Positions 61,750 through 63,351 of a stretch of DNA of 64,000 nucleotides are shown piece after piece. Within the stretch, counting starts at the first letter, position 1. Every line of letters begins with the position of its first letter. Location of the stretch: positions 62,001-126,000 of the forward strand of contig CACVAP010000039.1 of the NCBI GenBank assembly GCA_902727895.1. The letters are read 5' to 3'. The stretch is from an uncultured Sulfurovum sp. (GTDB taxonomy: Bacteria > Campylobacterota > Campylobacteria > Campylobacterales > Sulfurovaceae). The translations under genes and the position numbers were made by a program. The notes under the pieces are model-generated. The model did not search any database and had not been told where the DNA came from. It worked only from the letters and a program-made list of their open reading frames with translations.

Positions 61750-62067
61750 CTACTTCATGCCAGCAAACGCAGTGAATTTTCGTACTTTTAGGTCGGGAAA
61801 AGAGGTTACAATTTGAACTTTAAAATCGGGAAAGCTATCAACTATTTTCCATTTTCCACATGTACTAGGAAAAGAAGAAACAAACTCCACATCTATGTCT
61901 GGAAAAGAATCCACATACTCTATTTTCAAATCAGGAAATGAATCTACAAACTGTACTTTACCATAGAGGGTTATGCCATTTTTTGTACAAGGGGTTGAGG
62001 AATTTGCAGATAATGTTCCTCCAGTAAACAAGATAAGTATACTAAGACTTTTTAATGATTTCTTCAT
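61750..62067 (-). CDS. Exported DSFPD-repeat protein
   Basis: A 105-residue protein with a signal peptide (residues 1-20), then five repeats of about 11-13 residues, each with a (V)xSFP core: VDSFPDLKIEY, VDSFPDIDVEF, VSSFPSTCGKWKI, VDSFPDFKVQI and VTSFPDLKVRK. Alternation suggests stacked short beta strands. Two Cys (about 27 and 71) could form a disulphide. I recognise such repeats only from small hypothetical exported proteins. Confidence 0.65.
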   Translation of the reverse strand: MKKSLKSLSILILFTGGTLSANSSTPCTKNGITLYGKVQFVDSFPDLKIEYVDSFPDIDVEFVSSFPSTCGKWKIVDSFPDFKVQIVTSFPDLKVRKFTAFAGMK

Positions 62068-62259: not shown

Positions 62260-63351
62260 ATGCGAAAAATATTGGCTTTTATGTTGCTATTTTCACTTTA
62301 CGGGCAAAGTGAAACATTAAAAATTGGAATCAAACCTTCAGAACCATGGGTTATGTACGACCAAAACCTCAGTGAAGAGAATCGTAAACCCATAGGATTC
62401 AGTATTGACCTATGGAATAAAATTGCTTCAGAACTAAATGTAAAAACAGAATGGGTCTACTTTGATTCAGTAACTGACCTAGTTAAGGCTACAAAAGCAG
62501 AAGAAGTAGATGCCTCTATCTCAGCTGTTACCATTACCTCAGCAAGAGAATCAGACATAGACTTTTCAAACTCTATGTATGAACTCGGTTTACAAGTTAT
62601 GGTAGATGCTGAAAAATCATCAGCAAGTGTTTTAGAGCTTATGGGAAAAGAAATCTCTAAAATGATGACTACCCAAACGGTTTTAATGTTCTTACTCTTC
62701 CTTTTTATCACCATGAATCTACGTTGGTTTGTTGACAAAAGAGATGAAAGTTCTGATCTTTTTTCTAAAAACTATACAACAGGTATTGTAGACTCTTTCT
62801 GGTGGGGAATCACCATGCTCATCACATGGGAAACACCTCCAAGTAAAGGACTGGCTAGAACCATTGACCTTATGTGGCACATTGTGGGAATCTTAGCTGT
62901 AAGTATTTTAACAGCCATCGTTACTTCTGCACTAACAGCACAAGCCATAGGTGGTTCAATTCGTTCAGAAAAAGATTTAGCAGGTAAATTTGTAGCTGCT
63001 GTAGCTACCGATGCACCTCGTCAGTATGTTGAAAAAATAGGGGCAAACGTTGTTCCTGTGAAGACACTAGAAGAAGGAATGGAACTTCTACGTAATGGAA
63101 GTGTAGAAGCGCTGGTTCACGATGGACCAAGACTTGTCTACCTTGCAAACCAATACAACAAAATAGCGAAGAAAAAAGTACTCACCGTTGCACCATTTAC
63201 TTTTAACCCTCAAAACTACGGAATTGTATTTCCAACAAGAAGTTCACTTAAAGAACGTGCCGATAGAGAATTGTTAAAACTACGTGAAGCAAATGGATTG
63301 GAAAACAGTTTCCATGAAGAGTTAAAGCAAAAATGGTTGAAGAATAATTAA
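62260..63351 (+). CDS. Prokaryotic ionotropic glutamate receptor-like ligand-gated channel
   Basis: A 363-residue protein with the order S1 - TM1 - pore - TM2 - S2. S1 (about 20-118) is a periplasmic-binding-protein-like lobe (KIGIKPSEPWVMYD, GFSIDLWNKIASEL). TM1 is about 138-157, and the pore helix is DSFWWGITMLITWETPPSKG (179-197). TM2 is about 203-230, and S2 about 238-345 has ATDAPRQYVEKIGANVV. GluR0-type relatives have TVGYG in the pore; here TWETPPS takes its place, so ion selectivity is probably not that of a K+ channel. The ligand is unknown; amino acids are likely. Confidence 0.85.
   Translation: MRKILAFMLLFSLYGQSETLKIGIKPSEPWVMYDQNLSEENRKPIGFSIDLWNKIASELNVKTEWVYFDSVTDLVKATKAEEVDASISAVTITSARESDIDFSNSMYELGLQVMVDAEKSSASVLELMGKEISKMMTTQTVLMFLLFLFITMNLRWFVDKRDESSDLFSKNYTTGIVDSFWWGITMLITWETPPSKGLARTIDLMWHIVGILAVSILTAIVTSALTAQAIGGSIRSEKDLAGKFVAAVATDAPRQYVEKIGANVVPVKTLEEGMELLRNGSVEALVHDGPRLVYLANQYNKIAKKKVLTVAPFTFNPQNYGIVFPTRSSLKERADRELLKLREANGLENSFHEELKQKWLKNN

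Follow-up and report, generated by a model that had tools for sequence, protein, structure and literature searches.

A Sulfurovum-like Campylobacterota (genome G000, 2.96 Mb) encodes a glutamate-receptor-like protein in which the TVGYG filter of GluR0 is replaced by the stretch TWETPPSKG. On sequence grounds, this protein is probably an amino-acid-gated cation channel that is not selective for K+, a prokaryotic iGluR homologue of the non-potassium kind. The gene lies in a stretch of 64,000 nucleotides from an uncultured Sulfurovum sp., hereafter the window, and its product is called the window protein.

Layout of the protein and its ligand-binding core

The open reading frame (62260-63351, forward strand) is intact, with an ATG start and no internal stops, and encodes 363 amino acids (Table 1). 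The strongest Pfam match was SBP_bac_3, one split domain across residues 21-341 (E 3.9e-18), and the Pfam model of the glutamate-receptor S1 half (Lig_chan-Glu_bd) was matched at 2.6e-10. Between the two SBP halves, Lig_chan (PF00060) matched residues 146-243 with 26.7 bits, under its curated cut-off of 30.8 bits when the window protein was taken alone. Hydropathy revealed only two long hydrophobic stretches (about 131-160 and 197-234), and an AlphaFold2 monomer model, built with 13 homologues and of modest confidence (mean pLDDT 66.5), contained helices at 138-161, 172-189 (the pore helix) and 198-232. A second prediction, of the membrane part by itself and with no alignment, reproduced these helices at low confidence (pLDDT 57.5). 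Thus, the split SBP_bac_3 domain, the two hydrophobic spans and the AlphaFold2 helices all bear out the S1-TM-P-TM-S2 order that had been proposed for this gene. A probable signal peptide (residues 1-17) places S1 and S2 in the periplasm. Neither an M4 helix nor an amino-terminal domain was found, the 363 residues holding only two transmembrane segments after the signal peptide. When the AlphaFold2 model was searched with Foldseek, the best matches were full-length iGluR chains comprising the ligand-binding and transmembrane domains (GluD2, E 1.2e-13; GluA2, E 1.3e-13), aligned over the whole of the model, with soluble binding proteins ranking behind them.

Table 1. Position of the iGluR-like gene and its elements in the window.
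Feature	Position	Strand	Evidence
Complete gene, iGluR-like channel (S1-M1-P-M3-S2), 363 aa	62260..63351	+	ORF, Pfam, AlphaFold2, Foldseek
Probable signal peptide MRKILAFMLLFSLYGQS, residues 1-17	62260..62310	+	Read from sequence; AlphaFold2 helix 2-13
S1 half of ligand-binding domain, residues 18-135	62311..62664	+	Pfam SBP_bac_3 and Lig_chan-Glu_bd; PDB 2pyy alignment
R96, aligned with the conserved S1 Arg	62545..62547	+	Invariant in alignment A1; 2pyy and GlnBP alignments
M1 transmembrane helix, residues 136-159	62665..62736	+	Hydropathy; AlphaFold2 helix 138-161
Pore (P/M2) helix, residues 172-188, with invariant WW and T185-M186	62773..62823	+	AlphaFold2 helix 172-189; alignment A1
Filter stretch TWETPPSKG, residues 189-197, replacing TVGYG	62824..62850	+	Alignments, pN/pS
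E191, E or D throughout the family, aligned with the iGluR '+4' acidic pore residue	62830..62832	+	Alignments
M3 transmembrane helix, residues 198-228, SILTAIVTSALT	62851..62943	+	Hydropathy, AlphaFold2, alignments
S2 half of ligand-binding domain, residues 229-363	62944..63348	+	Pfam, 2pyy alignment, AlphaFold2
D288, aligned with the conserved S2 Asp	63121..63123	+	Invariant in alignment A1; 2pyy and GlnBP alignments

The nearest solved relative is 2pyy, the ligand core of a Nostoc punctiforme homologue (5.4e-25). The conserved ligand-binding pair is present: R96 and D288 are invariant and align with their counterparts in 2pyy and GlnBP, where the S1 Arg binds the alpha-carboxylate of an amino-acid ligand and the S2 Asp its alpha-amino group (Ger et al. 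2010, PMC2950845). K25 and D251-A-P differ from the GlnBP residues at the same places; because K/R25 and the S2 motif [S/T]DAP are specific to the family, the ligand is not predictable.

A short, conserved filter in a receptor-type pore

The pore helix is followed directly by T189-W-E-T-P-P-S-K-G197, and TVGYG is absent. Direct reading and the family alignment thus confirm the substitution described in the original prediction. The motif TW[E/D]TP was found in 41/41 distinct family sequences that cover the filter (38 TWETP and 3 TWDTP). The Trp of the loop (W190) is invariant in alignment A1, and the acidic residue (E/D191) is kept in every one of the 41 sequences reaching the loop. Counted from the conserved aromatic pair of the pore helix, this residue comes sooner, by three positions relative to K+ filters (TTVGYGD) and by two relative to AMPA/kainate receptors (QQGCD, QQGSE), the loop being shorter by the same numbers of residues. 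In alignments, E191 falls on the D/E of QQGCD/QQGSE, the '+4' pore position of iGluRs, where animals, plants and GluR0 all keep an Asp or Glu (PMC12226733).

Among 15 Sulfurovum-group orthologues, the filter had the lowest pN/pS of the protein (0.10, with 91% amino-acid identity), M3 came next (0.11, 90% identity), and values elsewhere ranged over 0.22-0.30 (S1 0.24, S2 0.22, M1 0.28); as synonymous sites are near saturation, it is the ranking of these values that can be trusted. Constraint that peaks in the filter and M3 is what a working pore would show, and it argues against decay of the pore. Chance, a local error, a frameshift or a sequencing error was ruled out, as the loop is common to 41 homologues and shows the lowest pN/pS; every orthologue carries TW[E/D]TP, and none the ordinary filter.

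We then asked which pores this region resembles. A search of the PDB with the pore-only segment (115 aa, E<=1) returned 44 matches, all of them eukaryotic iGluRs with GluK2 the best, and no K+ channel among them. A profile of 15 family pores reached GluA2 at 6e-6, and the best 60 matches listed were all glutamate receptors. In Pfam, Lig_chan was the only family matched by the pores of all 15 members (best E 4.9e-8), and Ion_trans_2, the K+-channel model, was matched by none of the 15. As a control, we used L037, a K-type paralogue with TVGYGD from the same bacterial family. Its pore retrieved Kv channels first (2e-10) and then iGluRs (2e-9), and matched Lig_chan, Ion_trans_2 (51.7 bits) and Ion_trans in Pfam. 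With this positive control, the pore-only searches rule out a K+ filter concealed by misalignment. The SYTANLAA(F) gate motif of M3 is not kept, SILTAIVTSALT standing where animal receptors have SYTANLAAFLT. All together, these comparisons make a non-K+ pore well supported, with the reservation that ion selectivity is not predictable from sequence alone and that filter motif and selectivity can diverge, as in AvGluR1 (PMC3483616).

Distribution, phylogeny and other departures from TVGYG

The family with this loop, hereafter WETP, ranges over Sulfurovum-group Campylobacterota and Thiotrichales, both of which are sulfur oxidisers. Within the genus, 23/34 genomes had an orthologue, counting that of the window; in the order Thiotrichales, 18/63 genomes had one, at 50-56% identity. 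Most of the Thiotrichales members are assigned to that order through their kinship with a Thiothrix record (L013). The WETP proteins formed one clade (100/100) in a tree of 50 proteins, and within it the Sulfurovum sequences were nested inside the Thiotrichales ones (86/74). This nesting suggests gene transfer from Thiotrichales to Sulfurovum; gammaproteobacterial monophyly within the clade was nevertheless not rejected by an AU test (p-AU 0.106).

The original prediction had called the protein glutamate-receptor-like with a non-potassium pore, which the PDB and Pfam pore searches uphold, and an INTERMEDIATE, with K+ channels of bacteria on one side and animal receptors on the other. This latter position was not supported. 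Over the whole protein, the K-type paralogue L037 outscored the window protein against animal iGluRs (87.6 bits with GluA1 versus 44 bits with GluA4). Only two animal receptor sequences entered the 50-protein tree; their branch was long, at 3.8 changes per site, and its placement is uncertain. A tree of M1/P/M3 from which the filter columns had been removed weakly paired the animal pores with K-type bacterial proteins (81% SH-aLRT) and grouped most non-K bacterial pores (81%). AU tests rejected no arrangement: WETP with animal receptors (p-AU 0.485), K-type with animal receptors (p-AU 0.064) and WETP with all other non-K prokaryotic sequences as one clade (p-AU 0.061) all stood.

Bacterial homologues depart from TVGYG in varied and widespread ways, with at least five other loop types. 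In the window's own bacterial family, two GluR0-type paralogues, L036 (G061) and L038 (G069), carry the degenerate filters TVGNVEMSP and TFLGDKNISL; as they lie inside an otherwise K-type clade, these are apparently recent losses of TVGYG. Loops of the form TMGGFENEVP and ATQADQMP were seen in gammaproteobacterial homologues. In Thiotrichales-order genomes, L092, L093, L095 and L097 share a conserved non-K loop, TMGGFE-x-x-VP, and form a clade of their own, so that this order carries both that pore type and WETP. Group 2-like pores (see below) each have a different loop and lie apart from the WETP clade: IGQDVTMP in a cyanobacterium (L045), TRGPFNYFEF in Vibrio/Photobacterium (L049/L050) and TSGKSPKRKN in alphaproteobacteria (L046/L047/L051/L052). 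The last four, encoded on plasmids, have a basic rather than acidic loop (SGK..xRKNLFGW) and a pore helix without the WW pair; where annotated, they are called substrate-binding proteins only. Two further K-type iGluR homologues, G849:C94:10886-11868 (L100) and G860:C259 (L102), are read in two frames or contain an internal stop and are possible pseudogenes or assembly errors. From these loops, several independent filter changes seem more likely than one series. Given such variety, a single series from K+ channels to animal receptors is too simple.

Ger et al. 2010 (PMC2950845) divided 22 prokaryotic iGluRs into 12 Group 1 members, with a K+ filter, and 10 Group 2 members (from Nostoc, Vibrio, Photobacterium, Silicibacter and others). 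The latter have 'P regions we do not recognize', with no likeness to any channel whose selectivity is known, and were proposed to be closer to eukaryotic receptors. Their list contains no Sulfurovum or Thiotrichales member. The window protein shares topology and a non-K pore with Group 2 and falls within its definition; a non-K pore is thus not new as a kind. As far as the literature found shows, the novelty is the T-W-[E/D]-T-P subfamily, which has a short and strictly conserved loop and is separate from the other non-K types. No literature on Sulfurovum glutamate receptors was found. To our knowledge, GluR0, a K+ channel, is the only bacterial receptor to have been characterised functionally. 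With GluR0 (Slr1257, Synechocystis) and Group 1 in general, the window protein shares the S1-M1-P-M3-S2 order, the signal peptide, the lack of an amino-terminal domain and M4, and the ligand Arg and Asp; GluR0, however, has TVGYG and matches K+-channel models, whereas the window protein has TWETP and leaves Ion_trans_2 unmatched. AMPA/kainate receptors (GluA1-4, GluK1-3) have in common with it the fold of the ligand-binding and transmembrane domains, pore similarity and the acidic +4 position, but the window protein lacks their amino-terminal domain, M4 and SYTANLAAF, its filter is two residues shorter, and identity is about 20%. GlnH/GlnBP shares the S1/S2 ligand-binding fold and the HD pair of S2, but is soluble and without the transmembrane insertion.

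Proposed function and alternatives

The gene neighbourhood is not conserved. Between the Sulfurovum and Thiotrichales loci, only the channel gene itself was common, and no permease or kinase was conserved near it in this gene-order comparison. Three other shared clusters (C1-C3) were discarded as partners, being open reading frames antisense to the channel gene. Divergent from the channel gene lies a gene for a probable secreted protein of 105 aa (61750-62067, reverse strand), with short tandem V-D/T/S-SFPD-L/I/F-K-like repeats and no Pfam match; relatives also occur on Leptospira weilii and Burkholderia plasmid records. It was rejected as a partner, being present in only 4/60 related genomes. 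A search for a phage origin found no match. With no conserved partner gene, the orphan protein probably works alone.

In the channel reading, four subunits would assemble the pore, into which the P-loop would reach from the cytoplasmic side. The periplasmic clamshell, on shutting around an amino acid or a comparable small ligand, would tug M3 and open the pore, and cations would then pass without K+ selectivity. At the cytoplasmic mouth, the four E/D191 residues would form a ring that could play the role of the '+4' acidic ring known from eukaryotic iGluRs. GluR0 is reported to have its two termini outside and to affect cell volume at high KCl (PMC13099474); by analogy only, a rapid response to ions or nutrients would be the most natural role for the window protein, which would probably act alone, like its cyanobacterial counterpart, in fast ionic or nutrient sensing.

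Several observations count against a conducting channel: none of the characterised iGluRs and K+ channels aligned has so short a loop, the invariant Trp could occlude the pore, SYTANLAAF is not kept, Lig_chan stays under its cut-off for the window protein alone, and the AlphaFold2 monomer is of modest confidence. The main rival is accordingly a sensor or scaffold that keeps the tetrameric iGluR architecture, the short Trp loop shutting the pore and the ligand being signalled by conformation. A loop two to three residues shorter than in conducting relatives, its invariant Trp and the missing K+ filter all fit this proposal. We nonetheless hold it to be less likely, since the filter and M3 are constrained above the ligand-binding domain, all 41 sequences retain an acidic residue at +4, a cytoplasmic partner domain is absent and no conserved neighbour gene points to a signalling partner. 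A membrane-anchored solute-binding protein with a decayed pore, acting as receptor for an ABC or TRAP transporter or for a kinase, would suit the automatic annotation of relatives as 'transporter substrate-binding domain-containing protein' and the rank of SBP_bac_3 as strongest Pfam match. It is improbable, because M1-P-M3 splits S1 and S2 exactly as in iGluRs, the strongest purifying selection falls on the pore, and a permease or kinase is not conserved nearby.

A K+-selective channel with a non-canonical filter appears about as improbable: K-type members of the fold family do occur in the same bacterial family and order, and AvGluR1 provides a precedent for a mismatch of motif and selectivity (PMC3483616), but the residues needed for the main-chain cage of TVGYG are deleted here, and the pore retains no K+-channel similarity, whereas that of L037 is strongly similar. 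Least probable of all is an evolutionary intermediate from bacterial K+ channels to animal receptors. Pore-only similarity to animal iGluRs and the unrejected WETP-animal grouping (p-AU 0.485) speak for it; against it, the K-type L037 is closer to animal iGluRs over the whole protein, the M1/P/M3 tree weakly sets the animal pore with the K-type proteins, and the animal branch, made up of only two sequences, is very long.

Beyond a non-K-selective iGluR homologue, we tentatively suggest that the WETP proteins of these sulfur oxidisers may constitute a class of their own among the ligand-gated channels of bacteria. Their minimal acidic filter, a four-fold T-W-E/D, would pass Na+ and/or Ca2+ and would have arisen independently of the eukaryotic Q/R/N-type filter. 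The putative T-W-E/D filter would recall those of bacterial Nav and Cav channels, which are of the T-x-E/D kind. The question addressed by such proteins is how glutamate receptors abandoned K+ selectivity, and the WETP family, with about 40 natural orthologues, lends itself to finding out which ions the shortest working iGluR filter lets through.
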